A stretch of 64,000 nucleotides of DNA from Ruegeria sp. HKCCA6707 (GTDB taxonomy: Bacteria; Pseudomonadota; Alphaproteobacteria; Rhodobacterales; Rhodobacteraceae). The position numbers and the translations under genes were made by a program. The DNA lies in assembly GCF_013033515.1 (NCBI RefSeq), contig NZ_WQEG01000010.1, positions 1 through 64,000 on the forward strand, in the 5' to 3' direction. Shown in pieces: positions 35,063 to 56,931 of this stretch. The notes beneath the pieces are model-generated. The model was given only the letters and a program-made list of their open reading frames with translations, searched no databases and was not told the DNA's origin. Each line of letters starts with the position of its first letter. Position 1 is the first letter of the stretch.

Positions 35063-36103
35063 TTACTCCGCGGCTTCAAGGTCGGTTGCGGGGGCGGAAC
35101 CCTTTGACGGAACCTGACCGTTTTCAGCCGTTGCCTGGCCCATTCCGATCACCGGACGCCGGGGGTTTTTGTTGTGCATCAGCGCCAGCGCATCTGGGCG
35201 GGCATAGTGGCCGGCCGGGTCGGCTGCTGTTTTGGAATGCGAGATCAGGCCAAGGTCGATATCGGCGATGACCAGGCCTTCGGCACCATGTGCCAGGTTT
35301 TCGCCGAATTCAGCACCGTTGGGTCCAAATATCCGTGAGTACCCGCCTCCAACTTCGACAAATTTCTCATGCATCTCGTTCTTGACCAACAGATCATAGA
35401 TCGGCTGATCAATCACGGAACAAGAAGCCAGAACAAAACACTGACCTTCCACCGCATAGATCTGGTTGACGTTCACGCTGACTTCGGGGCTGAAGGCCTT
35501 GGACAATTTGGCGTAGAGGCTAAAGGCCGGCCACGCCGCGCAGTGGATTTCTTCGTTTTGGCTGAACATTGCGTATTTGCTGAGCGGCTGCAGGTTTTCC
35601 CAGCAACACAGTGCGCCCACATTGCCCAGCTCGGTCTGGTTCACGAACATGTCGCTGCCGTCGCCTTCACCAAAGACCGAGCGTTCCACATGTGTCGGCT
35701 TTAGCTTGCGCCGGCGCGAGATAACCTCACCTTCGGGGCCATAGTGCCATTGCGCCATATAAAGGCTGCCGCCCTCGCGTTCTGAGACGCCGATGACAAC
35801 ATGGATGTTGTTGCGCCGCGCTGCCGCGCGCAGTTTGAGATCCTGTTCGCTGCCAGCAACGATAGCGTTCTGGAAGTAGGGCGCTGCGAACTGCATATTG
35901 ATCGCTGGTGGGTTGAACCAAATCCACCAAGGGTAACCAGGCAACCAGGTTTCGGGGAAATTGATCAGCTGAACCCCCGCCTTGCCAGCTTCATCGATTA
36001 GACCAATGGCCTTTTCTACGCCCGCGTCGAGGTCAAGTAAAACAGGCGCGGCCTGTACCGAAGCAACTTTTACGATTTTTCCAAGAGGTCCATGTCCGGA
36101 CAT
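35063..36103 (-). CDS. Aliphatic/aryl nitrilase
   Basis: 346 aa from ATG at 36103 (MSGHGPLGKIVKVASVQAAPV), with AGGGAGAC upstream. Nitrilase triad: E51 (NFPETWLPGYPWW), K135 (RRKLKPTHVER) and C167 (GALCCWENLQPL). True nitrilases hydrolyse R-CN to the acid and ammonia; the CCWENLQPL form is typical of aliphatic and aryl nitrilases rather than amidases. Divergent from an AraC regulator. Two genes away lies the reductive dehalogenase locus, so a halogenated nitrile is a possible substrate (inference). Confidence 0.9.
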   Translation of the reverse strand: MSGHGPLGKIVKVASVQAAPVLLDLDAGVEKAIGLIDEAGKAGVQLINFPETWLPGYPWWIWFNPPAINMQFAAPYFQNAIVAGSEQDLKLRAAARRNNIHVVIGVSEREGGSLYMAQWHYGPEGEVISRRRKLKPTHVERSVFGEGDGSDMFVNQTELGNVGALCCWENLQPLSKYAMFSQNEEIHCAAWPAFSLYAKLSKAFSPEVSVNVNQIYAVEGQCFVLASCSVIDQPIYDLLVKNEMHEKFVEVGGGYSRIFGPNGAEFGENLAHGAEGLVIADIDLGLISHSKTAADPAGHYARPDALALMHNKNPRRPVIGMGQATAENGQVPSKGSAPATDLEAAE

Positions 36104-36278
36104 GATAGTCTCCCTGTTCTTTTGTCTGACAGTGAGGCTGGCAGGAATCTTGAGGTTCTTCTTAGCTGCATGGGCCAAAAAACTTGCGAATTTGGGACAA
36201 TGCTGGCCCGAATATACAAGTCATTTGTAATTATTTCGTTTTGAAACTATCTTTGTTCTATCCAAACGCGGGGGCGGG

Positions 36279-37244
36279 ATGCCGTCAGAGACGCATATCT
36301 ACAGTACGGAAAGCATCCGGCCGGATCAGCGTTTTGATTTCTGGCGCGATGTCATCTGTGATGCCTATCTGCCGATCACCTGCACGACTCCAAAGCGTTC
36401 AGAGTTTCATGGCCAGATCAGTTTGACACGGTTGCCACGTCTGAATCTCTCGCGTGTGTCGGGCAGCCCGCAGCATGTCAGGCGCAGCAGATCCGAGATT
36501 GGACGTGATCGTGACGCCTATTTCATGATTAGCCTGCAGCTGTCCGGAACCGGGGCGGTGGTGCAAGCTGGGCGCGAGGCGGTTTTGGCAGCGGGCGATT
36601 TTGCGGCCTATTCGACCATAGAACCTTATGAAATCCGCTGTGAAACGCCGGTTGATCAGCTGATCCTGCAAGTTCCGCGTTCTGCCATGCTCGCCCGGTT
36701 GCCACAGGCAGATCTGCTGACGGCGCGCCGTATTCAGTCTACTGATGGGTTGGGCGGTATGCTGTCGTCGCAAATACGCCAAAGCGCCGATCTTGTGGCT
36801 GAACAATCAGTGCTCGTGCAACAGCACATGCGGGACCTGATGATAGACTACGTGGCCACTGGCCTGTCATCCCTGGCGCCGTCGTCTCTCGAACTCAGTC
36901 GGCCCGAGCATCTATTGCTGAACCGCGCTAAGGCCTTTGTGAAGGCAAATTTGCGCGACCACGATCTGAGCCGGGATAGCCTAGCCCGGGCCATGGGCAT
37001 GTCGGCTCGCAACCTGTCGCGCGTGTTTGCGCGCGAGGGTGAGTCGATCGCCGGTTTCATCCGGGCGGCGCGGCTCGAGGCCATTGCCTCGGACCTGGCT
37101 GATCCAAGACTTCTCCGCATGTCGGTCACGGAAATCGCACTCAGATGGGGCATGCCCAACGCGCAGCATTTGTCCCGTCTGTTCAAGGAAACCTACGGGG
37201 TGTCGCCACGCGCCTACCGGGTTGAACAGCAGAAGATGCAGTGA
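36279..37244 (+). CDS. AraC-family regulator
   Basis: 321 aa. N-terminal AraC-binding-like domain (FDFWRDVICDAYLPITC...YFMISLQLSGTGAVVQAGREAVLAAGDFAAYSTIEPYEI) and C-terminal double helix-turn-helix (LSRDSLARAMGMSARNLSRVFAREGESIAGFIRAARLEA, VTEIALRWGMPNAQHLSRLFKETYGVSPRAYR). Regulators of this type often activate nitrile, amide or aromatic catabolism. Divergent from the nitrilase across 175 bases, its likely target; ends one base before the dehalogenase stop on the other strand. Confidence 0.9.
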   Translation: MPSETHIYSTESIRPDQRFDFWRDVICDAYLPITCTTPKRSEFHGQISLTRLPRLNLSRVSGSPQHVRRSRSEIGRDRDAYFMISLQLSGTGAVVQAGREAVLAAGDFAAYSTIEPYEIRCETPVDQLILQVPRSAMLARLPQADLLTARRIQSTDGLGGMLSSQIRQSADLVAEQSVLVQQHMRDLMIDYVATGLSSLAPSSLELSRPEHLLLNRAKAFVKANLRDHDLSRDSLARAMGMSARNLSRVFAREGESIAGFIRAARLEAIASDLADPRLLRMSVTEIALRWGMPNAQHLSRLFKETYGVSPRAYRVEQQKMQ

Positions 37245-37245
37245 G

Positions 37246-40200
37246 TCACAGATCGATTTCGATTACCCCGTCAGCCTCGGCCGCGCGGCTTTGGCAGAGG
37301 ATGATCGAACCCTCTCGCTGCGCTTTGGACAGCACGAAATCGCGATGCTCGACATCGCCTGACACCAGGCCGCATTTGCAGACACCGCAGATACCGTCGC
37401 TGCATTTCACGTCGATGGGGATGCCGGCCTCAACCAGAACATCGGTGGCTGTCTTGTCGGCTGGTATGTGGAATTCTTTGCCACTGCGGGCCAGCTTGAG
37501 CGTAAAGTCGTGATTGACGTAATCGGGCGCTTCGGGGACCGAGAAATATTCCAGATGCCGCGCCTCTTCCGGGAAGCCCGCGCGTTCAGCTGCCTCCAGC
37601 ACGCTGGTCATATAGCGGTCAGCCCCGCAGGTATAAACATGCCAGCCGGGCTGGTACCCGGCCATGACCTGATCCAGATCGGCCCGCGTGCCTTCATCAG
37701 TGACATGCAGCTCGACCCGGTCGCGCCATTCGAAGCCTTCGATATCCTCAAGCAGACCCATGGTCTCACGAGAGCGGCCTGAATAATGCAGCTCGAAATC
37801 AGCCCCTTTGGCGTAAAGCTCATGCGCCATTGCGATCATCGGGGTGATGCCGATCCCGCCCCCCATCAGTATCGATTTGGTGGCTGTGGGTTCCAGCGGG
37901 AAATGGTTGATCGGGTGTGAGATAAAGACCCGGCGACCCTCGGTGAAGATGCGGTGCATCAGTTTCGAGCCCCCGCGCCCCTCATCCTCGCGCAGCACCG
38001 CGATCTGGTATTTCGTTCGGTCAGCAGGGTCACCCGACATCGAATACTGGCGCAGGAATTCGGGCGCGACCACGATGTCCAGATGCGCACCGGCCTGCCA
38101 TTCGGGCAGCACTCCGCCATCGACCGGGATGAATTCGTATTTCATCACCCCATCTGCCGTGGCTTCGGCCTTGGTGATGATCGCGGGGATCACCGGGCTT
38201 TCGCCATCGGCGGTGTAATTGTGAATGACACTGTCATCCCCCTGGGCGCGGCGGTCCTTGTATTCCTGAACCGAGACCATGGCCTTATAGGCCTCGATTC
38301 CCGCCTCGCGGTCCATGTTGAACGGATAGGGGTGGGGATGCGGTGCCAGCGGTGCGGGATAAACCGCAAGCGTCTGATCTTCGAATTTCAGATCCAGATC
38401 TTTTTGCAGTGCGCGTTGGTTGGTGGGCTCTTTGGTGGGGCGGTAACCGCCATCCTCCTGAATCTCCAGATCCCACCACCATTTCTTGACAGGATTGAGC
38501 GTACCATTGTCGACATAGTCATCCAGCTTGGCCAGCGCCGGTGCCAGTTTTGGCACATTCATTGCCGCCCAGCGGAAGGGGCGTTCCTTGAAGATGCCCT
38601 CAAGGTTCCACGGGCAGGTCTTCATGCAACGCCCGCACATGGCGCCACCTGGCGTGGTGACGCGATAGGTGGCGCATTTCTGGCTGTCGGATTTCCAGAT
38701 CTCATAGCCGTTGAACATGGTCTTGGGCCCGGCCGTGATCGCGCCCGAGGGGCATTCGCGCGCGCATTTGTTGCAGCTTTCGCAGAAGGTTTGCAGCCCA
38801 AAATCAATCGGCTTGTCATGGGCCATTGGCAGCGTCGTGGTCACCGTGCCCGATTTCAGCCGGGGGCCCAGATAGGGGTTCAGGATGACCTCACCGATAC
38901 GGCTGACCTCACCCAGACCAGACAGCAGCAACAGCGGCGGCTGCAACACCTCGCCATCCATCACCGTATGGGCCTTGGCCTCATATCCCAGGTTGCGGAT
39001 CTGCTTGGCAATGACACCACCAAGTAGCGAAAACCGCAGATAGGCGCGCATGGATTGAGCCACCGCGATCCAGTCATCGCCGGAGGAGCCTTCCATCGTC
39101 TCATAGCCCTGATCGATGATCATATTGATCGATTGATCATGGGGCGGGTTCAGCACCTCGCCGCGCGCGTCATGGCTGTACCAGGCCCAATCGGGACAGC
39201 GTGAAATGCCAACCGCGTCGATGCCCAGCCAATAGCTGGTCGCCTTGACCAGATCCGCGGCCTCTTGCGGCTCGAGCGTGACCTTTTCCGGCGCAGGTTC
39301 ACCGTCTTGCAACAACACAAACGCTCCCAGGGCTCGGCGTTGCGCCATCGATGGTGCGGCTTTGCGCACATAAAGCCCGCCGGTGGCGGCTTCTTGCACC
39401 TTTTTGCCCATATCGCCGAACTGCGCGCGGGCGAACATGTCGGCGCGTTTGGGCACGCGGGCTACGTTTTCTTCGTCGATATAGGTGGTGGGTTCGTCGA
39501 TCCGTTTGAGCTTTTCAAACGGGTGCGCCCCGTCGACAAAACGCCGTTTGGCAAAAGGAACGGCGTTCATCGCGTTTTTCGCCGATGCAGTGCCAAATTT
39601 CCAGGCGGTGCCAAAGGCGGATGCGGGCTGTTCCGAGCGCGGGGCCAGCGGGGCGTCAGGCGCAAATTCGAACGTGGTGGTGACGGCGGCAAGGCCAAAG
39701 CGCGCGCCTACGTAAGGGTGCGCAAGAACGCCATCTTCGACTGTTGCCAGACCGGTCTGAACCGCCAGCTTGTTCAGATCGACGTCCGAGCTGGACACCG
39801 TATGGCCACGCGCGTCAAAGCCCAGAAGACGCAGGTAATTGGCCAGCACAACGGCGGTTTCAGCCGCCAAAAGCCCCGCCCGATGGGCCTGTGCATCTTT
39901 GATCCAGCCAGTGCCGACCTCATCCTGGTCAGGGTCGCGCGGATTTTCATAGAGAAACACCAGACAGTGGGTGTGGCCGTCGATACTGGTCGGCGGAGCC
40001 TCCATCGATTCTTTCAGATCGGCCATGATCATGTCGATGCCCGCGGCCAGAGTTTTTGTCTGACGCGTTTTCAGGTCATGGGCCAGCCGCGCGACATCTG
40101 GATTCTGGTGAGGGTGTTCCAGCACTGCCTCGGGCGGCAAAAGGCAAGTGCCGACCACAGCGGCATCCGCGAAATAGCCAAAGGATTTCAAATGATCCGC

Positions 40201-40455
40201 GCGCTCTTGCAGGTCGGTTGGAGTCTCGGCTACCGCCTTGTTGATCAACCCGTCGCGGATCGCGTCCAGCATCGCCTGATGTTCGCGCATCGCGTTCACG
40301 ATCGACCTTGGATCAGACCGGCGCGCATAAGATAGATGCTGCGCCTCCGGTACAGACCCCAGATCCGGGGCGCCGGTGGCCCGCGCCAGCAACTCGGTCG
40401 GGTAAGGACCCATGTGAACCGGGCGGTGTTTGTCTGAGAAAAAGCGCAAAGTCAT
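37246..40455 (-). CDS. Self-sufficient (NAD(P)H-type) reductive dehalogenase fusion
   Basis: 1069 aa, no Tat signal, so cytoplasmic and catabolic rather than respiratory. Order: degenerate cobalamin-fold copy (about 150-265), active cobalamin domain (about 400-550), two 4Fe-4S motifs (C558, C561, C564, C568; C594, C607, C610, C614), FMN domain with RQYS (802-805), NAD-binding GGGIGITPM (865-873), plant-type 2Fe-2S (C1018, C1023, C1026, C1054). This is the architecture of BhbA of Comamonas and NpRdhA of Nitratireductor, which remove bromine from hydroxybenzoates and bromophenols using NADPH. Y426 (WAWYSHD) falls where NpRdhA has its catalytic Tyr (from memory). Last gene of an operon with a TRAP transporter. 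Confidence 0.92.
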   Translation of the reverse strand: MTLRFFSDKHRPVHMGPYPTELLARATGAPDLGSVPEAQHLSYARRSDPRSIVNAMREHQAMLDAIRDGLINKAVAETPTDLQERADHLKSFGYFADAAVVGTCLLPPEAVLEHPHQNPDVARLAHDLKTRQTKTLAAGIDMIMADLKESMEAPPTSIDGHTHCLVFLYENPRDPDQDEVGTGWIKDAQAHRAGLLAAETAVVLANYLRLLGFDARGHTVSSSDVDLNKLAVQTGLATVEDGVLAHPYVGARFGLAAVTTTFEFAPDAPLAPRSEQPASAFGTAWKFGTASAKNAMNAVPFAKRRFVDGAHPFEKLKRIDEPTTYIDEENVARVPKRADMFARAQFGDMGKKVQEAATGGLYVRKAAPSMAQRRALGAFVLLQDGEPAPEKVTLEPQEAADLVKATSYWLGIDAVGISRCPDWAWYSHDARGEVLNPPHDQSINMIIDQGYETMEGSSGDDWIAVAQSMRAYLRFSLLGGVIAKQIRNLGYEAKAHTVMDGEVLQPPLLLLSGLGEVSRIGEVILNPYLGPRLKSGTVTTTLPMAHDKPIDFGLQTFCESCNKCARECPSGAITAGPKTMFNGYEIWKSDSQKCATYRVTTPGGAMCGRCMKTCPWNLEGIFKERPFRWAAMNVPKLAPALAKLDDYVDNGTLNPVKKWWWDLEIQEDGGYRPTKEPTNQRALQKDLDLKFEDQTLAVYPAPLAPHPHPYPFNMDREAGIEAYKAMVSVQEYKDRRAQGDDSVIHNYTADGESPVIPAIITKAEATADGVMKYEFIPVDGGVLPEWQAGAHLDIVVAPEFLRQYSMSGDPADRTKYQIAVLREDEGRGGSKLMHRIFTEGRRVFISHPINHFPLEPTATKSILMGGGIGITPMIAMAHELYAKGADFELHYSGRSRETMGLLEDIEGFEWRDRVELHVTDEGTRADLDQVMAGYQPGWHVYTCGADRYMTSVLEAAERAGFPEEARHLEYFSVPEAPDYVNHDFTLKLARSGKEFHIPADKTATDVLVEAGIPIDVKCSDGICGVCKCGLVSGDVEHRDFVLSKAQREGSIILCQSRAAEADGVIEIDL

Positions 40456-40467
40456 TGGCTATGGGCC

Positions 40468-41772
40468 TTAGTTGAACATTGTTTTGGGCAGCATCAGCGC
40501 GATATCGGGCACCGCCAGGATTACGACAATTGCCATAAGCATTGCGAACCAAAACGGCCAGATGCCAAGGAAAATTGTTGCCATCGGAACGTCGCGGGCA
40601 ATTCCCTTTACGATAAAGACATTCACCCCGACGGGCGGTGAGATCAGCCCCATCTCAAGCGCGATAACAGCCAGAACGCCAAACAGGATCATATCCACAC
40701 CCAACGGCTCAAGGATAGGTTGAACCACCGGAATTGACAGCACCAGCATGGCAAATCCGTCCAGGAACATGCCCAGGATGATGAACATCACCAGAAACGC
40801 AATCACGACCTGAAGCCCGGTGAAGCCCTGCGCCTCGACCCAGGAGGACAGAACAAATGTGATGGACGTGAAGCCGACAAAGGTTTTGAAGATAAAGGCC
40901 CCGAACAGGATCAGGTAGACCGATCCCGTTGCCCGCAGGGTCGAGCTGAAGACCTCGTTCATCGCTTGCAAGGTGCATTTCCCGCGCAGGGCCGTGACAA
41001 CAAGGGTCAGCGCAGCGCCGATCCCTGCGGCTTCGACTGCTGAGAACGCTCCGCCATAGATGCCGCCAACGGTCAGCAGGATGATCCCGACCATGACACT
41101 GGCGCGTCCAAGCGAGCCCCATTTTTCCCGGCGGTCCACGTCTTCGGAAAGTGACGGCGCTTTCGACGGGTCCATACGGACGACGATCCAGATGGCGATG
41201 ATGAAAAACAGGGTCAGCATCAGCCCGGGCAAGACACCGGCCATGAACAACCGACCAATGCTTTCTTCGGTCAGCATCGCATAGACGACAAAACCGGCAG
41301 AGGGCGGGATGAGAATCCCCAAAGTACCACCTGCGGCAATCGCACCTGTGGCCAGACCGTCATGATAGCCAAACCGGCGCATTTCCGGCAGGGACACGCG
41401 GCCCATGGTCATGGCCGAGGCCAGGCTTGAGCCAGAGAGTGCCGAAAACCCCGCGCAGCCGACCACCGCAGCCGATGCCAGCCCGCCACGGAACCTGCCC
41501 AACCAATTGTGGGCGGCGGTATAGAGATCCCGGCTGAGGCCAGAGACCCCTGCCAGATTGCCCATCAGCACAAAGAGCGGGATGATCGTGAGGGGATAGC
41601 TGGTGGCCTCGCTGAAAATCTCGCGCGCCAGCGAGGGCAGGGCGGCTTGGGGGCGGATCATCCAGATCCCCGCTGTACCCACCACCATCATGGCGATGCC
41701 CACCGGGGTTCTGATGTACAGCAAAAGCAGAAGGGTGATGAACCCAAGTGCGGCAATCGTCGTCAGGTCCAT
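40468..41772 (-). CDS. dctM: TRAP transporter large permease (DctM)
   Basis: 434 aa, about a dozen membrane segments. VGCAGFSALSGSSLASAMTMGRVSLPEMRRFGY and GAIAAGGTLGILIPPSAGFVVYAMLTEESIGRLFMAGVLPG are DctM hallmarks, as is ALEMGLISPPVGVNVFIVKGIA. Na+-driven uptake of an organic acid with DctQ and DctP. ATG overlaps the DctQ stop by one base; the dehalogenase starts 12 bases after its stop, so substrate uptake and dehalogenation are co-expressed. Confidence 0.94.
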   Translation of the reverse strand: MDLTTIAALGFITLLLLLYIRTPVGIAMMVVGTAGIWMIRPQAALPSLAREIFSEATSYPLTIIPLFVLMGNLAGVSGLSRDLYTAAHNWLGRFRGGLASAAVVGCAGFSALSGSSLASAMTMGRVSLPEMRRFGYHDGLATGAIAAGGTLGILIPPSAGFVVYAMLTEESIGRLFMAGVLPGLMLTLFFIIAIWIVVRMDPSKAPSLSEDVDRREKWGSLGRASVMVGIILLTVGGIYGGAFSAVEAAGIGAALTLVVTALRGKCTLQAMNEVFSSTLRATGSVYLILFGAFIFKTFVGFTSITFVLSSWVEAQGFTGLQVVIAFLVMFIILGMFLDGFAMLVLSIPVVQPILEPLGVDMILFGVLAVIALEMGLISPPVGVNVFIVKGIARDVPMATIFLGIWPFWFAMLMAIVVILAVPDIALMLPKTMFN

Positions 41773-42305
41773 TATTCTGCAACCTCATTTGGGTCTTCAC
41801 CGGCCCAATGGACCAGCCCGCTTGCGATCTGAACCAGCAGCGTCAGAGCAAAGAACCCCAATGCGATGGCCAGCGCGTAATAGAACGGAGCGTGCGGGAT
41901 CGTCAGGTTGCCAGTGACATTGCCGCAGGCCAGACCGCAGTTTCCCTTTTTTATCAGCGCGCTGGCTGCCAGGATCAGGATGACAACTCCGACCCCGCGC
42001 GCGATCAGATCGGTCAAACGCCGAACCTTGCGGCCGAAATGCTTAGGCATGATGTTGACGGTGATATGGCTGTTCTGGGTGGCCCCAAAGGCGACTGCCG
42101 CCGCAGCCACAATCGCCGCCGTCATGGATGACAGATCCTGAAGCCCAAAGATCGGATCAACCAAAATGTAGCGCCAGATGACCCCAACCACAGTCAGGGT
42201 CATCAAAAGCAGCACTCCGACCGAGCCGACCAGGACAAACACATAAGAAAGCCGGTCCAGCCAACGCTGGGCCGAAGTGTGAAAGCTATGTGATCGGCCC
42301 TGCAT
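41772..42305 (-). CDS. dctQ: TRAP transporter small permease (DctQ)
   Basis: 177 aa with four hydrophobic segments (VFVLVGSVGVLLLMTLTVVGVIWRY; LSSMTAAIVAAAAVAFGA; IARGVGVVILILAASALI; YYALAIALGFFALTLLVQIA), the DctQ layout. Associates with DctM. Lies four bases after the binding-protein gene. Confidence 0.92.
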   Translation of the reverse strand: MQGRSHSFHTSAQRWLDRLSYVFVLVGSVGVLLLMTLTVVGVIWRYILVDPIFGLQDLSSMTAAIVAAAAVAFGATQNSHITVNIMPKHFGRKVRRLTDLIARGVGVVILILAASALIKKGNCGLACGNVTGNLTIPHAPFYYALAIALGFFALTLLVQIASGLVHWAGEDPNEVAE

Positions 42306-42309
42306 CGGA

Positions 42310-43287
42310 TCAGTCCTGGACCATCAATGTCATGATGTCGCCCACGGTCTTGTCCCCGGCAGGCTGAGCCAACAGCTCGGGCAGTACCGCGTCGATCACG
42401 GCTTGCATCTTGGCGCGTTCTTCATCGCCGATGTCGATAATCTCTAGCCCCGACTCTTCAGCAAGCGCCATACCCTTGTCGGAGATTTTGGCATAGGTTG
42501 CACCGGCCTGGGCCGAAAGCTCTGAGGTCGCGACCTTTTCTACCGCGGCCTTTTCCGAGTCGCTCAACCCGTCGAAAACTGCCGCAGACATGGCCACCGC
42601 AAACGAAGATGCGCCACCGGGGATGTCGGTGGTGACGTAGCTTCCCGCTTCGTGCAGCTTGAACGAGCCGATCCCCGCTGGGTCGATCATGACACCGTCA
42701 ACCACTCCGTTGGCCAGCGCCTGGTTGATCTCGCTGACCGGCAACGCAACCGGAGAAGCGCCAAGAGCTTCCAGAAACGGCGTGCTGGTCGGGTCGACCA
42801 CCCGAATGGTCATGCCTTTCAGGTCATCAACCGTGCGAACGGGCTTGTCCCGTGTGATCAGCACCGGTGGAGAGTTGGCCCACAATCCGATAATTTTGGC
42901 GTTGTATTCTGTCTCAAGTTCGCTGCGGGCCTTGTTGATGGCTGTGGTGCAGCTGATCGCGTCCACACAGATACCGGGCAATCCGATTACGGCGGTCTTG
43001 GGGAACAGCTTGTTGGTAAAGCTGGGCAGCAAGAACGCCATATCGGCGGTTCCGTCCAGCAACAGGGAATATTGCTTTGGCGGGCTCTGGTTCAGCGCGC
43101 CACCGGGAAATTGTCTGACCGTCAGTTCCCCATTGCTCACCTCTTCCAGCATTTCGCCCATGGGCGTGAAATAGCCTGCGTTCATCGGGTGTTTTGGCCC
43201 CATGAAATAGGCAAGAGACAGTTCACTTGCGGCAGCCGTTACAGGAACCAATGCTGCAAATGCCATCGCCAATAGTGGATGCTTCAT
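42310..43287 (-). CDS. dctP: TRAP transporter substrate-binding protein (DctP)
   Basis: 325 aa with Sec leader MKHPLLAMAFAALVPVTAAA. GYFTPMGEMLEEVSNGELTVRQFPGGALNQSPPKQYSLLLDGTADMAFLLPS is the DctP start, and LKGMTIRVVDPTSTPFLEALGASPVALPVSEINQALANGVVDGVMIDPAGI carries the conserved Arg that binds the substrate carboxylate. In Comamonas a TRAP component accompanies the BhbA dehalogenase (from memory); here the ligand is likely a halogenated aromatic acid. First gene of the operon, divergent from marR. Confidence 0.92.
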   Translation of the reverse strand: MKHPLLAMAFAALVPVTAAASELSLAYFMGPKHPMNAGYFTPMGEMLEEVSNGELTVRQFPGGALNQSPPKQYSLLLDGTADMAFLLPSFTNKLFPKTAVIGLPGICVDAISCTTAINKARSELETEYNAKIIGLWANSPPVLITRDKPVRTVDDLKGMTIRVVDPTSTPFLEALGASPVALPVSEINQALANGVVDGVMIDPAGIGSFKLHEAGSYVTTDIPGGASSFAVAMSAAVFDGLSDSEKAAVEKVATSELSAQAGATYAKISDKGMALAEESGLEIIDIGDEERAKMQAVIDAVLPELLAQPAGDKTVGDIMTLMVQD

Positions 43288-43319
43288 GATCTTCTCCCAG
43301 CTGTAAGTTGCTGGCAGTC

Positions 43320-43340
43320 ATAGTTATCAATGTAAACTAT
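43320..43340. promoter_or_regulatory. Candidate MarR operator between dctP and marR
   Basis: ATAGTT (43320-43325) and AACTAT (43335-43340) form a perfect inverted repeat with a 9-base spacer in the 131-base divergent gap. Size and position suit a MarR dimer controlling both the TRAP/dehalogenase operon and its own gene. Confidence 0.5.
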
Positions 43341-43418
43341 TAAATCAAGAAAATATTTGCACTAAGCTTTTTGGGCCCGTATCATGGGCATGTTTCTGGG
43401 CGACAATGAAATTGAAAA

Positions 43419-43868
43419 ATGGCGAAAGACTATAAATTACAAGAACGTCTGGGGTTTCGGCTTAGTCGGCTGTCGAAGATGATGCAGACAAGGCTCGAGT
43501 TCAGTTTGCGAGAGCATGGGGTCACCAGGCTAGAATGGTGCATCCTGTCCGGCGTTGCGTTGGAGGGGTATGATTCACCTTCAGAACTGGCCGACCATAT
43601 TGGCATAACACGGCCGGCTGTCTCGCGTCTTCTCAAGGGGCTTACCGAGCGTCGTTTGATCGAACGTGCTTTGATAAATTCAGACGGACGGTCCCGGAAG
43701 CTTACAGTCACCAAACAAGGAATGGACAGCGTTACGAAGTGTTTGCCGCTTGTCGAAAGCACGCAGGATCATTTCACCAAAAAGCTTACGGCCGCGCAGC
43801 AGTCTGCACTGAGTGAGACGTTGGATTTGATGCTGTCCGGTGAGGATACGTCTTTTGAAGACTTGTAG
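43419..43868 (+). CDS. MarR-family transcriptional regulator
   Basis: 149 aa winged-helix protein: GVTRLEWCILSGVALEGYDSPSELADHIGITRPAVSRLLKGLTERRLIERALINSDGRSRKLTVTKQG covers helix-turn-helix and wing with the DGR..KL.VT pattern. Divergent from the TRAP/dehalogenase operon, so the likely local repressor responding to an aromatic acid. The ATG is preceded only by a weak purine stretch. Confidence 0.9.
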   Translation: MAKDYKLQERLGFRLSRLSKMMQTRLEFSLREHGVTRLEWCILSGVALEGYDSPSELADHIGITRPAVSRLLKGLTERRLIERALINSDGRSRKLTVTKQGMDSVTKCLPLVESTQDHFTKKLTAAQQSALSETLDLMLSGEDTSFEDL

Positions 43869-44554: not shown

Positions 44555-44611
44555 ATGAAAGACTGGTCGCTGCGCCCGAAATCAACACGACTTGAAAGGA
44601 ATTCACCATGA
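44555..44611 (+). CDS. Putative 18-residue leader ORF before the MBL gene
   Basis: MKDWSLRPKSTRLERNSP, preceded by the strong site GAGGGGGCAGGGG, ends in a TGA that overlaps the ATG of the next gene (ATGA). It also contains that gene's own ribosome site. Could be a coupling or leader peptide; it may also be chance. Confidence 0.3.
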   Translation: MKDWSLRPKSTRLERNSP

Positions 44612-45519
44612 ATCATGCGTCGCTAAACCGTCGCCAGGCTCTGGCCGGGCTCACGGCTTCGGCAGCCATGCTTGCTGCTGGTCGGGTACAAGCGTTTTCC
44701 GATGTGGCGATCGGCAACGCGACGCTGACTGCGTTGTCGGATGGCTCGCTGACGGTCCCTCCTGTGCTTTTTACAGGACTGGCCGAGGCTGATGCGGCTG
44801 CATTGGGTGAGACCGTTCAGCTTGCGGCCAATACCTATGCCTATCGGAGTGGAGACCGCGTGTTCTTGTTCGATGCGGGTTCGGGAAGCGATCACTATAT
44901 CTCGCAGCAATTCCCGACGGTTGGACAATTACACGCTGATCTCAAGGCAGCGGGAATTGCAGCCGACGAGGTCACGGATATTGTGATCAGCCACATGCAT
45001 ATCGACCATATCGGAGGGTTGGTCGCAGGCGGAACTCCTGTCTTTTCTAATGCCTCGGTCCACCTGTCCGAGGCGGATTGGAACTTCTGGAACAACGAAG
45101 ACCTGCCCGCCTCGGTGCCTGATCAGATGAAACCGATGGTCAACGCCGCACAACTGGTCAGTTCGATCGTGAAAGAGAATGTGGTGACCCACAAGACCGA
45201 GGCCGATCTGGGCGAAGGCGTCGTTCTTTTGCCGACGCCAGGCCACACCCCGGGACACAGTGCTGTTATGCTGACCTCGGGGTCGGAACAGATCATGTTG
45301 ATTGGTGACGCGGTTGTGTCGGACAAGGTGCATTTCGCAAATCCCGACGTAGGCTGGGCGCTTGAGTTTGACAAGGCTGTCGCCGCCCAGACCCGCAAAT
45401 CCATTCTGGATCAAGCGGCCACGGACAAGATCAGAATAGCAGGAAGCCATCTGTCGACACCCGGTATCGGATTTGTCGAAAAGGACGCAAGTGCCTACCG
45501 TTTTGTTCCGACCAGCTAA
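44608..45519 (+). CDS. Tat-exported MBL-fold metallo-hydrolase
   Basis: 303 aa. N terminus SLNRRQALAGLTASAAMLAAGRVQAF is a twin-arginine leader, so the folded enzyme is sent to the periplasm. Metal site SHMHIDHIGG (HxHxDH), then PTPGHTPGHS (His), LIGDAV (Asp) and a late His (AGSHLS). Family members hydrolyse lactones, thioesters and related bonds; the order resembles quorum-quenching-type lactonases. Followed by a strong terminator, so it is probably expressed with the NTF2-like gene but not the amidase. Confidence 0.87.
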   Translation: MNHASLNRRQALAGLTASAAMLAAGRVQAFSDVAIGNATLTALSDGSLTVPPVLFTGLAEADAAALGETVQLAANTYAYRSGDRVFLFDAGSGSDHYISQQFPTVGQLHADLKAAGIAADEVTDIVISHMHIDHIGGLVAGGTPVFSNASVHLSEADWNFWNNEDLPASVPDQMKPMVNAAQLVSSIVKENVVTHKTEADLGEGVVLLPTPGHTPGHSAVMLTSGSEQIMLIGDAVVSDKVHFANPDVGWALEFDKAVAAQTRKSILDQAATDKIRIAGSHLSTPGIGFVEKDASAYRFVPTS

Positions 45520-45526
45520 GGCTATC

Positions 45527-45557
45527 AAAGAAACACCCAGAACATGGGTGTTTCTTT
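45527..45557 (+). terminator. Strong intrinsic terminator after the MBL gene
   Basis: A perfect 13-bp stem (AAAGAAACACCCA with TGGGTGTTTCTTT) and a 5-base loop GAACA, eight bases after the stop; the descending arm is T-rich. Confidence 0.8.
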
Positions 45558-45610
45558 CCTCTCCGGCGGAAGTCGTTCCGTAATAACGAACAGTCCTTAG
45601 AGGAGGGGCC

Positions 45611-45643
45611 ATGTTTCAGAGGCGATCCAACCGCCCACAATAA
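45611..45643 (+). CDS. Putative 10-residue leader ORF before the amidase gene
   Basis: MFQRRSNRPQ with an excellent ribosome site (AGAGGAGGGG) but stopping 19 bases before the amidase ATG, which has its own weaker site GGGAG. Possible leader peptide; unsupported beyond the ribosome site. Confidence 0.25.
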   Translation: MFQRRSNRPQ

Positions 45644-45662
45644 GCATCAGGGAGAACCAACG

Positions 45663-47027
45663 ATGACGTCAGACCAAACAGGATTTGACCTTGCCGAAAG
45701 CGTGATGACCTTGGCCAAGGCGCGCCATCTGCGCGACACGCTGGGTGCGCGGGCGCTGTACGACAAGGTTCTAAAGACGGCACGTGCGGCTGAGGGTAAC
45801 GCGGTGATTGCCACCTCGGATGCAGCAGCATTGCAGGCCCAAGGGCCGCTGGCGGGGATCCCGTTTGGGGTCAAGGACAATATCGACTGTCTGCCGTTTC
45901 CGACAACCGGTGGCTCGCCCGGTTTGTTGGAAAACCTTCCCGAGGCCGATGCGCCCCCGGTCGCGCGACTGAAAGCAGCAGGAGCTTACGTTCCCTTCAA
46001 GCTGAACCTGCACGAGCTGGCCTTTGGCATCACGTCGAACAATGCGCATTTCGGCGCGGTCTCGACGCCCTTTGATCCTATGCGCGTCGCGGGCGGGTCC
46101 TCGGGGGGCAGTGCGGCTGCGGTGGCGCGGGGGCTGATCCCCTTTGCGCTTGGGACCGATACCGGTGGATCAACCCGTATTCCGGCTGCGTTTTGTGGTG
46201 TGGTCGGCTTCCGGCCCAGCGTCGGGCGATATCCTGACGGCGGTGTCCTGACGCTCAGCACCACGCGGGATACCGTTGGCCCGATTGCGTCCTGTGTGGC
46301 TGACCTGCAGGAAGTCGATGGCCTGATCGTACCGGATGACAGTGAAACACCTGGCATCGACCGTCCTTTACGGATCGGGCTGATCTACCGGCACGCAGGG
46401 CTGTCGAACGCAGTGGACGCGCGGTTCGAACAGGCGGTCACGGCGCTTGAAGCGGCCGGGCTGGCCCAGTTTGTCACCCTAAGCGACACCGTGTTCGATG
46501 GGCTTGAACAACAGATGGGGCAAGCCATTGTGGTAAACGAGGCCCATCGGGTCTGGACTGATTTCTGTCAGAACCGGTTGGGTAAATCCTTGTCCGAATT
46601 TGCGGAAACGATTGGCAGCCCCGACGTGCGCGGTGTGTTTTCCGCGCTTCCCGATCTGTTGGAGCCCACGGCCGAGCCCTTTGCAGCGGCGCATGCTGGT
46701 GGGGGGCTAGCGCGGCTAAGGTCTGCCTATGCCGATCTGTTTGATCGCGAAAGCCTGGACCTGATTGCCATGCCCACGGTGCCGGTTCAGCCTCCGCTGA
46801 TTGGCGAAGATGAGACAATCGAAACCGATCAAGGTCCGCAGCCAACCTTTCCGACTGTTATTCGCAACACCTCGCTGGCCAGTCTGACGGGGGCGCCGTC
46901 GCTGTCACTGCCAGCAGGGCTGGATCGCGACGGCTTGCCGGTGGGATTCATGCTCGAGGCCCGCGCCGGCCACGACCGCTTCTTGCTGGCGGCGGCCGCG
47001 CGTTTAGAGACGGTCCTGAACAGCTGA
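45663..47027 (+). CDS. Amidase-signature family amidase
   Basis: 454 aa. Triad of the amidase-signature family: Lys in PFGVKDNID, cis-Ser in VAGGSSGGSAAAVA, nucleophile Ser in LGTDTGGSTRIPAAFCGVVGFRPS. Hydrolyses a carboxamide to acid and ammonia; the standalone context (no gatB/gatC) argues against a tRNA amidotransferase. With the nitrilase 9 kb away it suggests use of nitrile- and amide-bearing compounds. Own promoter region after the terminator at 45527. Confidence 0.88.
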   Translation: MTSDQTGFDLAESVMTLAKARHLRDTLGARALYDKVLKTARAAEGNAVIATSDAAALQAQGPLAGIPFGVKDNIDCLPFPTTGGSPGLLENLPEADAPPVARLKAAGAYVPFKLNLHELAFGITSNNAHFGAVSTPFDPMRVAGGSSGGSAAAVARGLIPFALGTDTGGSTRIPAAFCGVVGFRPSVGRYPDGGVLTLSTTRDTVGPIASCVADLQEVDGLIVPDDSETPGIDRPLRIGLIYRHAGLSNAVDARFEQAVTALEAAGLAQFVTLSDTVFDGLEQQMGQAIVVNEAHRVWTDFCQNRLGKSLSEFAETIGSPDVRGVFSALPDLLEPTAEPFAAAHAGGGLARLRSAYADLFDRESLDLIAMPTVPVQPPLIGEDETIETDQGPQPTFPTVIRNTSLASLTGAPSLSLPAGLDRDGLPVGFMLEARAGHDRFLLAAAARLETVLNS

Positions 47028-47788: not shown

Positions 47789-49414
47789 TTATCCTTTTCC
47801 GCAGGCGGTACGAAGTGCCTGGCGCAACGCATCGCTGTCAAAGCGGTCCCACCGGGCGGTGACATGCTGATCAGGTCGGATCAGGTAGACGGCGGATTTT
47901 GCATCGCCCAGATATCTTTCGGACAGGACGCCCGTCGGATCGTCTGACGCCGACAAGGCAAGCCGCGACACTGTGATACCGTCATCCTCAAAGCTGTCGG
48001 GTGCATCGGTGTCGATGGTCAGCAAGATAAACCCGTCCCCCATTTGGTCCAGCAGGAACCCTTCGCTTAGCGGCGCATCAGGGCAAGGGCTTCCGACCCG
48101 AGTACGAGACGGGCCTCCAGTCAACGCGTCTTCACCGTTCAGCGACAGCCCGTCATAGGTGCAGGGCAGGGACAGCCTACCAGAGTTCACCAGCGGTCGC
48201 GCGAATTCTTGTGTTTTGGCCAGATTCAGCACCGCGTTGCGGAACGTATGACTGATCTTGGATTTCGGCGTGATGAAATCGGTGGACCGGGTCGAGTTCA
48301 GAATATTCTCATCCGCGCCATAGGCCCGTTCTTCGTTATAGCTGTCGATCAGGCTTTCAGGCGCTTTGCCTGCAAGCACAAGGCCCAGTTTCCAGCCCAG
48401 ATTGTCGACATCCTGCATCCCAGAATTCGCGCCACGCGCGCCAAAAGGCGACACCTGATGCGCTGCGTCTCCGGCAAAGATCACACGGCCTTTGCGGAAG
48501 TTCTCCATGCGGCGGCATTGGAACGTATAGATCGAAGACCACACGATGTCATATTCCACATCCTCGCCCAGCATCGCATCCAGACGAGCGCGGATGTTTT
48601 CCTCTTTCAGCTCTTCCTTGCGGTCGACATCCCAACCGATCTGGAAATCGACCCGCCACACGTCATCGGGTTGCTTGTGCAGCAAAGTCGAGGCACCCGA
48701 TTTGAAATAGGGCTCAAACCAGAACCACCTTTCGGTGGGAAACTCGGTCGATTTCATTTTGATATCGGCAATCAGGAAACTGTCCTGGAACACCCGACCT
48801 TCAAAATCCAGCCCCAGCATATTGCGCAGGGGTGAGCTGGCGCCGTCGCAGCCGATGACCCAATCGGCCTCAAGCTGATAGGGGCCATCGGGCGTCATCA
48901 CATCCAGCACCACATGGTCGTCTTGCGCATCTACCGCATCGACGCGGTTTTTGCCCCGGATCTGAATCGGCGCGCCCTTTTCCTGCTCGGCGCAGATCTG
49001 TTCGAACAGGAATTTTTCAAAATAGGGCTGCTGAAGATTGATGAAGGCCGGATTGCGGTGACCTTCCTCGGGTAGCAGGTTGAACTCATAGACTTGTTCC
49101 GCGTCTTGGAACACTTTGCCCAGGTTCCACACCACGCCCTTGTCCCGCATCGGTGCACCACAGCCGTAGCGATCTGCAATCTCCAGCGTGCGTTTGGCGA
49201 AACAGATGGCGCGGCTGCCCATGCCAATGCCTTCGTGGTCGTCCAGGACAACAACGGGGATCCCCTGCCGTCCCAGATCAAGCGCTGTGGCCAACCCAAT
49301 TGGCCCGCCGCCGACAACCACTACAGGATGGCGTACGGCTGAATCCACGTCCTGATCCGCAGATCGGGTGTAGGGATAGAGTTTGAATGCAAGTGTATAA
49401 CGATCGTCGAACAC
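47789..49414 (-). CDS. FAD-dependent aromatic monooxygenase (MhpA/PheA-type)
   Basis: 541 aa from GTG at 49414, placed by AAAGGAATTCC just upstream. PVVVVGGGPIGLATALDLGRQGIPVVVLDD binds the FAD ADP part, VIGCDGASSPLRNMLG is the DG motif, and RVIFAGDAAHQVSPFGARGANSGMQDVDNLGWKL the GD motif. The C-terminal 130 residues form the thioredoxin-like tail of phenol/3-hydroxyphenylpropionate hydroxylases. In a homogentisate operon it probably hydroxylates a hydroxyphenyl acid to homogentisate or a close analogue, for example 3-hydroxyphenylacetate (inference). Confidence 0.88.
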   Translation of the reverse strand: MFDDRYTLAFKLYPYTRSADQDVDSAVRHPVVVVGGGPIGLATALDLGRQGIPVVVLDDHEGIGMGSRAICFAKRTLEIADRYGCGAPMRDKGVVWNLGKVFQDAEQVYEFNLLPEEGHRNPAFINLQQPYFEKFLFEQICAEQEKGAPIQIRGKNRVDAVDAQDDHVVLDVMTPDGPYQLEADWVIGCDGASSPLRNMLGLDFEGRVFQDSFLIADIKMKSTEFPTERWFWFEPYFKSGASTLLHKQPDDVWRVDFQIGWDVDRKEELKEENIRARLDAMLGEDVEYDIVWSSIYTFQCRRMENFRKGRVIFAGDAAHQVSPFGARGANSGMQDVDNLGWKLGLVLAGKAPESLIDSYNEERAYGADENILNSTRSTDFITPKSKISHTFRNAVLNLAKTQEFARPLVNSGRLSLPCTYDGLSLNGEDALTGGPSRTRVGSPCPDAPLSEGFLLDQMGDGFILLTIDTDAPDSFEDDGITVSRLALSASDDPTGVLSERYLGDAKSAVYLIRPDQHVTARWDRFDSDALRQALRTACGKG

Positions 49415-49456
49415 TGGAATTCCTTTCTGACCAAGTGGGGTTGGCGGCTGAGTGGA

Positions 49457-50407
49457 TCAGCCCTGAAGCTGTTCCCACATCTCGATATCGCGCTTGTCGG
49501 TCCAGATACGTGGCGTATCGATTCCGCGGGCTTCGTCATAGGCGCGGGCGACGTTGAACGGCAGGCAGTGTTCGTAAATCGCGTAGTCGGCGAATTTCGG
49601 GTCACATTCTGCGCGCACGGCGTCCCAGGCCTCTTTCAGGCTGCCACCACGCGCAGCGACCTTGGCGGCCGGGCGATAGGTGCTTTCGACAAAGTCGCGG
49701 GTGTTTTCGATGGCGGCGTTGACCATGTCGTGCCCCACCAGCGCGTCGCCGCGTCCGGGTGCGATGGCGTCCACATCATAGGCTTTGATATTGTCCAGGG
49801 TCTGGCCCCAGTCACCAAAGTGACCGTCGCCGCAATAGCAGGCCGAGTGGTATTCGACGATGTCACCGGTGAACATCACGTTCTGATCGGGTACATGGAT
49901 CACTGCATCACCCGCCGTGTGGGCCCGGCCCAGATGTTTGATATCGACCCGGCGATTGCCCAGATAGACGGTCATACTGTCGCTGAAAGTGGTCGTGGGC
50001 CAGGTCAGGCCGGGGATGCTTTCATGGCCTTCAAAGAGGCGCGGGAAGCGTTGGAATTCGCTGTCCCAATCCTCTTGTCCGCGCTCCACAACCATGGATC
50101 GCGCCTTGTCAGACATGATGATCTGATCCGCCCCAAAGGCCGAAGCGCCCAGAACGCGCACCGCGTGGTAATGCGTCAGCACCACATGGCTGATCGGCTT
50201 GTCGGTGACTTCGCGGACCTTCTCGATCACCTTGCCGGCCAGGCGCGGTGTCGCCTGCGCTTCGACAATCATCACGCTGTCATCGCCGATGATTACGCCC
50301 GAGTTTGGGTCGCCCTCGGCAGTAAAGGCATAAAGCCCTTCGCCGATCTCATCGAAGGTGATTTTCTTTTCGGTCAGGTCGCCTTGCGAGGCAAATGCTT
50401 TGGCCAT
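49457..50407 (-). CDS. MBL-fold protein of the homogentisate cluster, incomplete metal motif
   Basis: 316 aa MBL-fold protein. The usual HxHxDH is HYHAVR: both first histidines remain but the bridging-site Asp and His are Val and Arg, so only one metal may bind. HTAGDAVIHVPDQNVMFTGDIV keeps the later His and Asp. It lies between the monooxygenase and fahA, six bases before the latter's end, so is co-transcribed. Perhaps hydrolyses a thioester or lactone, or no longer uses two metals. Role unproven. Confidence 0.8.
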   Translation of the reverse strand: MAKAFASQGDLTEKKITFDEIGEGLYAFTAEGDPNSGVIIGDDSVMIVEAQATPRLAGKVIEKVREVTDKPISHVVLTHYHAVRVLGASAFGADQIIMSDKARSMVVERGQEDWDSEFQRFPRLFEGHESIPGLTWPTTTFSDSMTVYLGNRRVDIKHLGRAHTAGDAVIHVPDQNVMFTGDIVEYHSACYCGDGHFGDWGQTLDNIKAYDVDAIAPGRGDALVGHDMVNAAIENTRDFVESTYRPAAKVAARGGSLKEAWDAVRAECDPKFADYAIYEHCLPFNVARAYDEARGIDTPRIWTDKRDIEMWEQLQG

Positions 50408-50412
50408 GGGTT

Positions 50413-51666
50413 TTATCCTTTGAATGGGTCGTCGAGTGCTGGCAGCACCGTGCCGGTGCAGGTGCCAAATCCGATCTGATAGCCGTCGCCTTTTGCGGCG
50501 CCGTGCAATGTCAGCGTGTCGTTGTCTTCGATAAAGCTGCGGGTAGTGCCATCCGCCAGCGTCATGGGCTCCTTGCCGCCCCAGCTGAGTTCCAGCAGAG
50601 ACCCGCGATTGTGTTTTTCCGGCCCCGAGATGGTGCCCGACCCCAGCAGATCACCCACCCGCATCGGGCAGCCCGAGGTGGTGTGATGCGCCAGTTGCTG
50701 AGCGGCAGAGTAATACATCTCGTTATAGTTGGTCTCGGCAATGACGCTGGCATCGCCACCTTCGGGCGTCAGCGTTACCTGCAAGTCGATATCGAACAGC
50801 ATTGGGGTGGTGTCGCGCAGATGTGGCAAAAGCTCTTTCTCGCGCGCAGGAGTTTCGCAGCGGAAGGGTGCCAGCGCGGCAGCGGCGACGATCCAGGGGC
50901 TGATCGAGGTGGCGGTCGCCTTGGCCTGGAACGGGCCCAGCGGCTGGTATTCCCAGGCCTGAATGTCGCGCGCCGACCAGTCGTTCAGCAGCACATAGCC
51001 AAAGATATTGGCATCCGCCCGATCCACCGTGATCGGCCCGTTCGAGGGCTGACCGACGATTGCGCCCATCTCAAGCTCGATGTCAAAGCGCTGCGATGGG
51101 CCCCAGCGCGGCGCGTCATCATTGGGGCCTTTCAGCTGGCCCCACGGGCGACGGATGTCGGTGCCCGAGACCACAACGGATGAGGCACGTCCGTTATAGC
51201 CAATGGGGATATGCAGCCAGTTGGGGGGCAGCGCGTTTTCCGGGCCACGGAACATGGTGCCCACATTGAAGGCATGGTTCTTGCCTGCGTAAAAATCAGT
51301 GTATTCCGACACGGCGATGGGCATGTGCAATGTCGCGTCTGCCTGCGCCACCAGCATCGGGGCCAGCTTGTCCTGGTCGGCGTTGCCCTCGGCCAACAGC
51401 GAGGTCAGCGTTGCTCGCAGGCGGGCCCAGGCCTCGGACCCCAGTGCCATAAAGGCGTTCCAGGTCGCACCGGTCAAAGCACCGCCGAAATCGACCAGAC
51501 CGGCCTCTTCCAGCGCGCGCATGTCGAGGATCTGATCCCCAATGGCCACGCCGCATCTGGATGACAAAGTGGCAGTCGAGAAGACGCCATAGGGCAGGTT
51601 GTTGAGGGGGAAGGGTGTGTCAGCGCTGTTGGCGCTGTCCACCCAGGAGTTCATCAGTTGTGTCAT
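50413..51666 (-). CDS. fahA: Fumarylacetoacetase
   Basis: 417 aa, the size of genuine fumarylacetoacetase with its N-terminal SH3-like domain (residues to about 120) and catalytic FAH domain: YTDFYAGKNHAFNVG, FDIELEMGAIVG, DWSARDIQAWEYQPLGPFQAKATATSISPWIV, LLGSGTISGPEKHNRGSLLELSWGG. Splits 4-fumarylacetoacetate to fumarate and acetoacetate, the last homogentisate step. ATG overlaps the maiA stop (TAATG). Confidence 0.94.
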   Translation of the reverse strand: MTQLMNSWVDSANSADTPFPLNNLPYGVFSTATLSSRCGVAIGDQILDMRALEEAGLVDFGGALTGATWNAFMALGSEAWARLRATLTSLLAEGNADQDKLAPMLVAQADATLHMPIAVSEYTDFYAGKNHAFNVGTMFRGPENALPPNWLHIPIGYNGRASSVVVSGTDIRRPWGQLKGPNDDAPRWGPSQRFDIELEMGAIVGQPSNGPITVDRADANIFGYVLLNDWSARDIQAWEYQPLGPFQAKATATSISPWIVAAAALAPFRCETPAREKELLPHLRDTTPMLFDIDLQVTLTPEGGDASVIAETNYNEMYYSAAQQLAHHTTSGCPMRVGDLLGSGTISGPEKHNRGSLLELSWGGKEPMTLADGTTRSFIEDNDTLTLHGAAKGDGYQIGFGTCTGTVLPALDDPFKG

Positions 51667-52304
51667 TAGGAACCTATCGCGTCAGGTTGTTGATCAGGAT
51701 GGGCGGCAGCAATTTCCGGCAGGCCGAGACAGGCCTGTTCGACCCGGGTGATCTTTGGGAACGGGCTCAGATCCACACCCCATCGGTGCGCATTGTAGAC
51801 CTGCGCCACCAGGCACAGATCGGCCAGATCCGGGGCCTCGCCAAAGCTGAATGTACTGGTGTCGGACAGCTGCGGCTCAAGCGCGTTGAACCCTTCGGTC
51901 ATCCAGTGATCCATCCAGTCGCGCGCCTGTTCGGGTGTCGCGCCATAGCGTGACTTGAGTTGCCCGATCAGGCGCAGATTGTTCACCGGATGGATGTCCA
52001 GCGCCACGGTATGCGCCGCCGCAAGAACCCGCGCGCGCTGCGCAGGTTCTTCGGGGATCAGACGCGGCGAGGGGACAACCGCGTCCAGATAGTCGATGAT
52101 CGCCAGCGACTGAGTCAGAACGGTACCATCATCCAGAACCAGCGTCGGAACACCTTTACCCGGGTTCAGCCGCACATAGTCCTCGGCCTGCTGCGCGCCT
52201 GCGGTCAGATCCACCGGGATCGTCTCATAGGCCAACCCCTTGAGATTCAGGGCTGCGCGCACGCGGTAGGATGTTGTTGAACGCCAGTAACTGTAGAGTT
52301 TCAT
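51666..52304 (-). CDS. maiA: Maleylacetoacetate isomerase (zeta-class GST)
   Basis: 212 aa from ATG at 52304 ([24 protein letters not shown]), overlapping the hmgA stop. The SYRVR-AL run corresponds to the zeta-class glutathione-site motif; [29 protein letters not shown] completes the thioredoxin-like half, with a helical C-terminal half ([16 protein letters not shown]). Isomerises maleylacetoacetate to fumarylacetoacetate using glutathione. Confidence 0.93.
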
Positions 52305-53659: not shown

Positions 53660-53712
53660 CTCGTAACTCCTCATCTGAGTATCCGGCATAGATTCGACTT
53701 GCCCTAAGCATT

Positions 53713-54811: not shown

Positions 54812-56931
<2,120 letters not shown>

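Follow-up and report, generated by a model that had tools for sequence, protein, structure and literature searches.

The first 64,000 nucleotides of contig NZ_WQEG01000010.1 of Ruegeria sp. HKCCA6707 (the window) encode a reductive dehalogenase (RdhA) fused to its own reductase, in one operon with a tripartite ATP-independent periplasmic (TRAP) transporter and opposite a marR regulatory gene (Table 1). We consider it likely that this locus forms a module for the catabolism of ortho-brominated (or iodinated) phenolic acids, probably acquired as a cassette that took the place of a LysR-linked RdhA. An enzyme of this type is nothing unusual in these bacteria; the present analysis adds comparative evidence for a putative recurring MarR operator, for the prediction that the TRAP importer of the operon is of an aromatic type, and for a near-core gene having apparently been replaced.

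The 1069-residue open reading frame scores 187.7 bits with the NCBIfam reductive dehalogenase model TIGR02486 (cut-off 160.35), with a further weak match of 28 bits in its N-terminal part. Its best stretch against the Protein Data Bank (PDB), residues 160-726, matches NpRdhA (6zxu, 4ras; E ~1e-154); the start of this alignment at residue 160, together with the weak N-terminal match, fits the vestigial duplicated cobalamin domain of the class. The C-terminal module (residues 760-1066) resembles phthalate dioxygenase reductase (2pia, E 1.6e-55) and carries a Fer2 domain (38.9 bits). Three sets of cysteines, C558/C561/C564/C568, C594/C607/C610/C614 and C1018/C1023/C1026/C1054, are invariant among eight aligned RdhA sequences; by motif, we take the first two to bind 4Fe-4S clusters and the last a 2Fe-2S cluster. 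The N-terminus, read directly and with no predictor, contains neither a twin-arginine (TAT) motif nor a hydrophobic stretch. Six active-site residues of NpRdhA (F291, S422, M423, Y426, K488, R552) are all kept in the window RdhA, as F341, S468, M469, Y472, K534 and R598, and are identical in the seven other aligned relatives. In NpRdhA, K488, R552 and S422 are described as touching the phenol hydroxyl, with Y426/K488 as the proposed proton donor (PMC7565698). The domain and motif anatomy given by an earlier sequence-only reading of this DNA is borne out by these family, structural and cysteine data. Signs of the cobalamin source that the enzyme would call for, and for which this reading had advised a search, are present as well: the genome encodes a CobN cobaltochelatase (1056.6 bits with the parts in frame summed, cut-off 822.05) and a CobT-type phosphoribosyltransferase (395.5 bits), which we take to mark cobalamin synthesis.

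In a tree of 46 RdhA proteins (built without locus L002), the 20 reductase-fused forms, among them BhbA and the window RdhA, make up a single clade with support of 100/100. NpRdhA falls in an enclosing clade (100/99) with two-domain and some short forms, under a long-branch warning that includes the NpRdhA branch. JtRdhA is in neither this tree nor the larger one described below. The same tree holds a 1116-residue RdhA-type protein with an extra part (L136, G613:C14), which lies outside the BhbA clade, among the two-domain forms. That the gene instead encodes a respiratory reductive dehalogenase or an epoxyqueuosine reductase has next to no probability. TIGR02486 is shared with these proteins and the QueG model gives a weak score (25 bits, cut-off 200), but the reductase is fused, the export signal is absent and the grouping with BhbA is fully supported; moreover, the genes flanking rdhA are dctM and araC rather than an anchor gene (rdhB), a comparison confined to the adjacent genes, with no wider rdhB search. 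Family scores, neighbours and placement thus reject both identities. The cytoplasmic, catabolic class proposed from the sequence holds, and the tree placement agrees with it. The proposal had named the class after BhbA and NpRdhA; the first name stands, and since NpRdhA has no fused reductase, the precise class is that of BhbA and JtRdhA. The sequence data confirm the window RdhA as a self-sufficient catabolic enzyme of this kind, a fresh member of a class already described, which should be an oxygen-tolerant, NAD(P)H-driven dehalogenase of ortho-halophenols.

The genes dctP, dctQ, dctM and rdhA follow one another on one strand with spacings of 4, -1 and 12 bp, and the operon with a divergent marR gene read earlier from the sequence is upheld by these strands and distances. 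The leading PDB relatives of DctP by sequence are 5i5p/5i7i, 5iga/5izz, 7nr2/7nra, 4p56 and 7nsw/7ntd/7nte (best E 2.9e-27). We compared a predicted DctP model (built from eight rows, mean pLDDT, the predicted local distance difference test score, 87.1) with known folds. The 12 top matches have Z scores of 31.9-33.5 and root-mean-square deviations of 2.4-2.9 over 302-308 residues; they consist of four marine-metagenome entries with 'specific for aromatic acid ligands' in the title, of TarP proteins that are either open or bound to coumarate, cinnamate, caffeate or ferulate, and of two entries with truncated titles that no longer show the ligand. The 4-hydroxyphenylacetate-bound 7nqg comes next (Z 30.8). 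TarP-type aromatic binders (5i7i/5izz, 7nr2, 7nte, 7nqg) are thus mostly also the leading sequence matches, with fold Z scores of 30.8-33.5, and these matches favour an aromatic acid as the ligand.

We examined the surroundings of rdhA at 86 loci, namely the best 80 of 564 confirmed loci, on named contigs (biased to close relatives) and six of eight long plasmid matches; 61 have 6 kb on both sides, and the RdhA was retained as such by an overlap rule in 81. The order dctP-dctQ-dctM-rdhA is visible, whole or in part, at six of them (L038, L040, L047, L053, L062, L115), and at three others marR is flanked by TRAP genes and rdhA (L036, L074, L102). Many Ruegeria copies have LysR genes among their neighbours instead. 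Twenty further loci contributed one marR gene (L154), one nearby TRAP set of the window kind on the opposite strand (L158) and one homogentisate set (L151). Between marR and dctP in the window lies a 21-bp imperfect palindrome with 8 of 10 arm positions paired, which a repeat search at a minimum length of 7 did not report. With this palindrome as an unchanged query on the marR-side stretches of 11 loci (500 shuffles each), L102 matched at 18 of 21 positions, L074, L040 and L036 at 17 and L060 at 16, values reached by 0 of 500 shuffles in each case; weaker matches occur at L056 (14; 3 of 500) and L037 (13; 7 of 500). The scores of the 11 loci add up to 160, where the shuffles average 125.6 and reach 138 at most, and 55 control stretches upstream of rdhA at loci without marR score at most 14. 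The palindrome is credible as an operator because it recurs beside related marR genes near rdhA, although site and MarR similarity are partly uncoupled (the L036 MarR, 34% identical, has the palindrome; that of L038, 57% identical, hardly). In the genome, a strict palindrome pattern found the window site only and a one-mismatch version one more site, while the backwards control gave nine matches; therefore, a wider MarR regulon is not suggested. By eye, a TTGATT hexamer precedes the palindrome on the TRAP strand, so that binding there should hinder transcription of that strand. We infer that MarR is a local repressor, with the palindrome as its putative operator.

RdhA is near-universal in the genus of the window (53 of 54 genomes). 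In a sample of the family, 236 of 394 genomes give a hit at E<=1e-20, and in many of these only the reductase half matches; a hand count among the matches listed finds near-full-length matches of about 1000 residues or more in ~145 of the 394. From these frequencies together, aerobic debromination looks like a routine trait here and not a pollutant speciality. Among 72,556 plasmid records, 8 contain a match that covers at least 80% of RdhA. The other genus copies among the matches listed are 67-72% identical to the window RdhA, while RdhAs from outside the genus come closer: 83% in Epibacterium ulvae (L040) and 82.6% on a Yoonia plasmid (L038). One genus member (G718) has three full-length RdhA-reductase fusions, on contigs C78, C88 and C115, which are 68, 67 and 72% identical to that of the window. 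We built a tree of 101 fused RdhAs by a quick method, with no bootstrap and with 39 of 95 inner branches supported below 80 in the Shimodaira-Hasegawa-like approximate likelihood ratio test (SH-aLRT); L038 and L153, with no intact frame holding both motifs, are not in it. The window copy falls in a branch of 35 rows (SH-aLRT 96) together with sequences from other genera, from Granulosicoccaceae bins and from Ahrensia, and all 26 rows labelled Ruegeria or same genus fall in a separate branch of 56 rows (96).

The usual locus of the genus lies in the window's own genome on contig C28 (G000:C28, ~72-74 kb, L181) and is empty of the LysR-rdhA pair. Alignment with L097 runs to base 8986 and resumes at 13257, so that 110 bp on C28 stand opposite 4270 bp of L097 with the LysR gene and rdhA, and the L097 RdhA finds no tblastn match at that locus. 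The same gap appears against L067, L101 and L109 (Ruegeria sp. HKCCSA071). The locus itself varies, with a different gene on one side of rdhA in L109 and a different downstream context in L104; on C28 the empty site adjoins a molybdenum-hydroxylase-like gene set. Because the usual locus is empty and the window RdhA groups with other genera, the cassette appears to have replaced the near-core, LysR-linked RdhA: loss at the usual locus and gain, elsewhere, of a foreign and differently regulated copy is the simplest reading of these sequences. An old paralogue retained in this strain alone would be a less simple account. A plasmid location of the window contig was considered and dropped, there being no RepC (PF03428) in the genome.

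The likely substrates were approached from the studied relative and from the neighbouring genes. Purified JtRdhA is reported to be NADPH-dependent and tightly coupled in air and to act on bromo- and iodophenols, while the chlorinated compounds tested were inhibitory and not dehalogenated; E. coli W carrying it grows on 3-bromo-4-hydroxyphenylacetate (PMC10463259). Of the halogenated acids proposed from the sequence alone, the brominated ones are thus plausible and the chlorinated ones unlikely if the window enzyme behaves like JtRdhA, and we regard bromo- and iodophenolic acids as the likelier substrates. The window FAH (fumarylacetoacetase), MAI (maleylacetoacetate isomerase) and HmgA (homogentisate dioxygenase) pass their family cut-offs, and these homogentisate genes lie 7-13 kb from rdhA. 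They adjoin rdhA in differing arrangements at L042, L044, L060 and L151 (L042 and L151 being close relatives), and pobA homologues are near rdhA at L034, L035, L073 and L089. Given the homogentisate and pobA genes near rdhA, brominated 4-hydroxyphenylacetate and 4-hydroxybenzoate would be the leading candidates. The PDB relatives of the flavin adenine dinucleotide (FAD) monooxygenase point to no substrate. Of 54 genus genomes with hmgA, 16 were examined; in ~20 kb around this gene, all 16 hold no homologue of rdhA, marR, TRAP, nitrilase, amidase or pobA at >40% identity and 60% coverage, and therefore the linkage of rdhA to homogentisate genes is not the genus norm. The window order hmgA-mai-fah-mbl-FAD monooxygenase is that of L044; in the 16 genus genomes examined, the mai homologue is found on the far side of the monooxygenase.

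Several observations weigh against a module of import, sensing and debromination. TRAP genes occur within ~5 kb of rdhA at 12 of the 86 loci only (two of them weak, at 26-28% identity) and a homologue of the window marR at 11 only, so that most relatives are without the set, and 25 loci have <6 kb on one side. DctP is only 18-25% identical to its structural look-alikes, the TarP-type binders included, with other TRAP binders scoring close behind. By itself the palindrome is at chance level, since shuffling the intergenic stretch gives one as good in 111 of 300 cases, and as stand-alone evidence we rejected it, accepting it through its recurrence only. It scores 13 at L038 (50 of 500 shuffles) despite a MarR that is 57% identical, 13 and not significant at L154 (101 of 1000), and at background at L049, L053 and L087, and a promoter scan of the TRAP strand reported no site. 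The homogentisate genes of the window may serve tyrosine breakdown only. The inverted repeat described from the sequence is thus present and recurs at related loci without being significant alone; the proposed uptake-dehalogenation-sensing module draws support from the class of DctP and from this recurrence, not from the palindrome taken singly. It is also conceivable, though we would not expect it, that the TRAP transporter and MarR are there for an aromatic acid without halogen (4-hydroxyphenylacetate or a hydroxycinnamate, for example), with rdhA as a passenger for occasional brominated contaminants. The proteins that DctP resembles bind ligands without halogen, homogentisate and pobA genes are nearby, and most RdhAs of this kind have no TRAP genes; yet rdhA ends a tight operon and is its one constant partner, the TRAP-rdhA order is found in several genera, and TRAP genes and rdhA flank marR at three loci. 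We prefer the module for brominated phenolic acids.

The cassette probably extends beyond the region first described, to the araC and nitrilase genes that follow rdhA. The same succession is found on the Yoonia plasmid (L038) and, truncated where the contig stops, in a Granulosicoccaceae bin (L047), whose nitrilase pieces are 91% identical, and it suggests a nitrile step upstream of RdhA. On L038 (15836-21440), rdhA and the nitrilase gene are both in broken frames, either pseudogenes or sequencing errors. One might then read the locus as a nitrile-to-phenol module in which the nitrilase makes the acid from a brominated hydroxyaryl nitrile and RdhA debrominates it, as Comamonas sp. 7D-2 does with bromoxynil, the compound here being a natural marine one. 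A nitrilase-family gene also lies ~11 kb from bhbA on the Comamonas plasmid pBHB, 0 of 12 other genus members examined have a close nitrilase copy (two have matches of 33-34%), and JtRdhA is reported to turn over bromoxynil, at 13.6% of its highest rate (PMC10463259). However, the pBHB nitrilase is 41% identical, below two other nitrilase-like genes of the genome (57% and 45%), and therefore the two nitrilase-RdhA pairings look independent. Furthermore, an araC gene of its own, divergently oriented, accompanies the window nitrilase, which lies outside the rdhA transcript; two of 86 loci are few, L047 is a short contig of a metagenome-assembled genome and may be misbinned, and the two L038 frames are broken. 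We consider this nitrile module unlikely. More doubtful still is the broader proposal that the near-core LysR-linked dehalogenase was lost to a travelling cassette with its own importer, a MarR with a portable operator and a nitrilase, forming a mobile pathway for natural marine brominated aryl nitriles and acids that has spread over alphaproteobacterial genera, plasmids and perhaps Granulosicoccaceae. Between the cassette and the homogentisate genes (44608-47027), the window encodes a metallo-beta-lactamase (MBL)-fold protein (AidB lactonase model 161 bits, cut-off 360) and an amidase (indoleacetamide hydrolase 429.6 bits, cut-off 532), and near its end (63876-63928) it has a COG3860 RNA element (Rfam RF02940, 47.9 bits, gathering score 42.5).

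Table 1. Features of the dehalogenase locus and its surroundings, in window coordinates
Feature	Position	Strand	Evidence
Nitrilase-family enzyme	35063-36178 (start codon uncertain)	-	PF00795 177 bits; Nit6803 family 239.1 (cut-off 502.6); PDB nitrilases
AraC-family regulator	36279-37244	+ (convergent with rdhA)	FeaR 155.9 bits (cut-off 199); same place in L038 and L047
RdhA fused to phthalate dioxygenase reductase-type module, 1069 aa	37246-40455	-	Vestigial domain, cobalamin domain, two 4Fe-4S motifs, flavin mononucleotide (FMN)/NAD reductase, 2Fe-2S domain
dctM, TRAP large permease	40468-41772	-	PF06808 294.3 bits; TIGR00786 above cut-off
dctQ, TRAP small permease	41772-42305	-	PF04290 57.9 bits
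dctP, TRAP binding protein, nearest to aromatic-acid binders	42310-43287	-	PF03480; PDB sequence matches; predicted fold
21-bp imperfect palindrome, proposed MarR operator	43320-43340		ATAGTTATCAATGTAAACTAT; recurrence at related loci
MarR-family regulator	43419-43868	+ (divergent from operon)	PF12802 51.9 bits; alignment of 9 relatives
FAD monooxygenase, MBL-fold protein, fumarylacetoacetase, maleylacetoacetate isomerase, homogentisate dioxygenase; candidate downstream pathway	47789-53689	-	Family scores; putative link to RdhA
PobA, 4-hydroxybenzoate 3-monooxygenase; possible second outlet	54812-55993	-	TIGR02360 668.6 bits (cut-off 538.7); putative link to RdhA

We propose that MarR, bound at the palindrome before dctP, would repress the operon until a phenolic ligand arrives, as its position and recurrence suggest, and that the acid would be taken up by the aromatic-acid-type TRAP transporter. 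In the cytoplasm, electrons would pass through the RdhA-reductase from NAD(P)H to FMN, the 2Fe-2S cluster, the two 4Fe-4S clusters and base-off cobalamin. The halogen beside the phenol hydroxyl would be removed, with Ser468, Lys534 and Arg598 holding the hydroxyl and Tyr472/Lys534 donating the proton; this mechanism follows those of NpRdhA and JtRdhA, and the residues concerned are present in the window enzyme. The halogen-free hydroxyaryl acid would then be fed into ring catabolism, for which the homogentisate or PobA genes nearby offer a plausible route. Historically, the cassette would have been acquired, and would now stand in for the LysR-linked RdhA that relatives have at another locus. 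This scheme yields testable predictions for the sensing, import and aerobic debromination of bromophenolic acids in the sea, with a named operator, a transporter class and product routes, and, with the copy swapped, one enzyme can be compared in nature under two settings of control and uptake.

In the open-access literature, searched by listings, we did not find the TRAP-MarR-RdhA arrangement in print; a paper on a Dehalococcoidia single-cell genome reportedly has the terms 'reductive dehalogenase', 'TRAP transporter' and 'MarR' together. Among known systems, BhbA of Comamonas sp. 7D-2 is 50.3% identical to the window RdhA over its full length and shares its clade. As in the window, bhbA adjoins a gene for a transport-type binding protein; unlike in the window, this protein belongs to the tripartite tricarboxylate transporter (TTT) family, ring-cleavage genes and insertion sequence elements accompany it, and the bhbA surroundings on pBHB give no MarR or TRAP match. 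NpRdhA of Nitratireductor pacificus is 43% identical over 562 positions and has the active site in common with the window enzyme, but it is described as having no fused reductase and depending on partner proteins (PMC10463259). Judged by architecture, the nearest studied enzyme is JtRdhA of Jhaorihella thermophila. Its activity has been measured, whereas that of the window enzyme is predicted, and the likeness is drawn from the published description (PMC10463259). As described there, JtRdhA has no TAT signal, a duplicated domain, two 4Fe-4S clusters and a fused reductase, like the window RdhA, and the six active-site residues listed as conserved in that paper are all kept in the window enzyme (PMC10463259).

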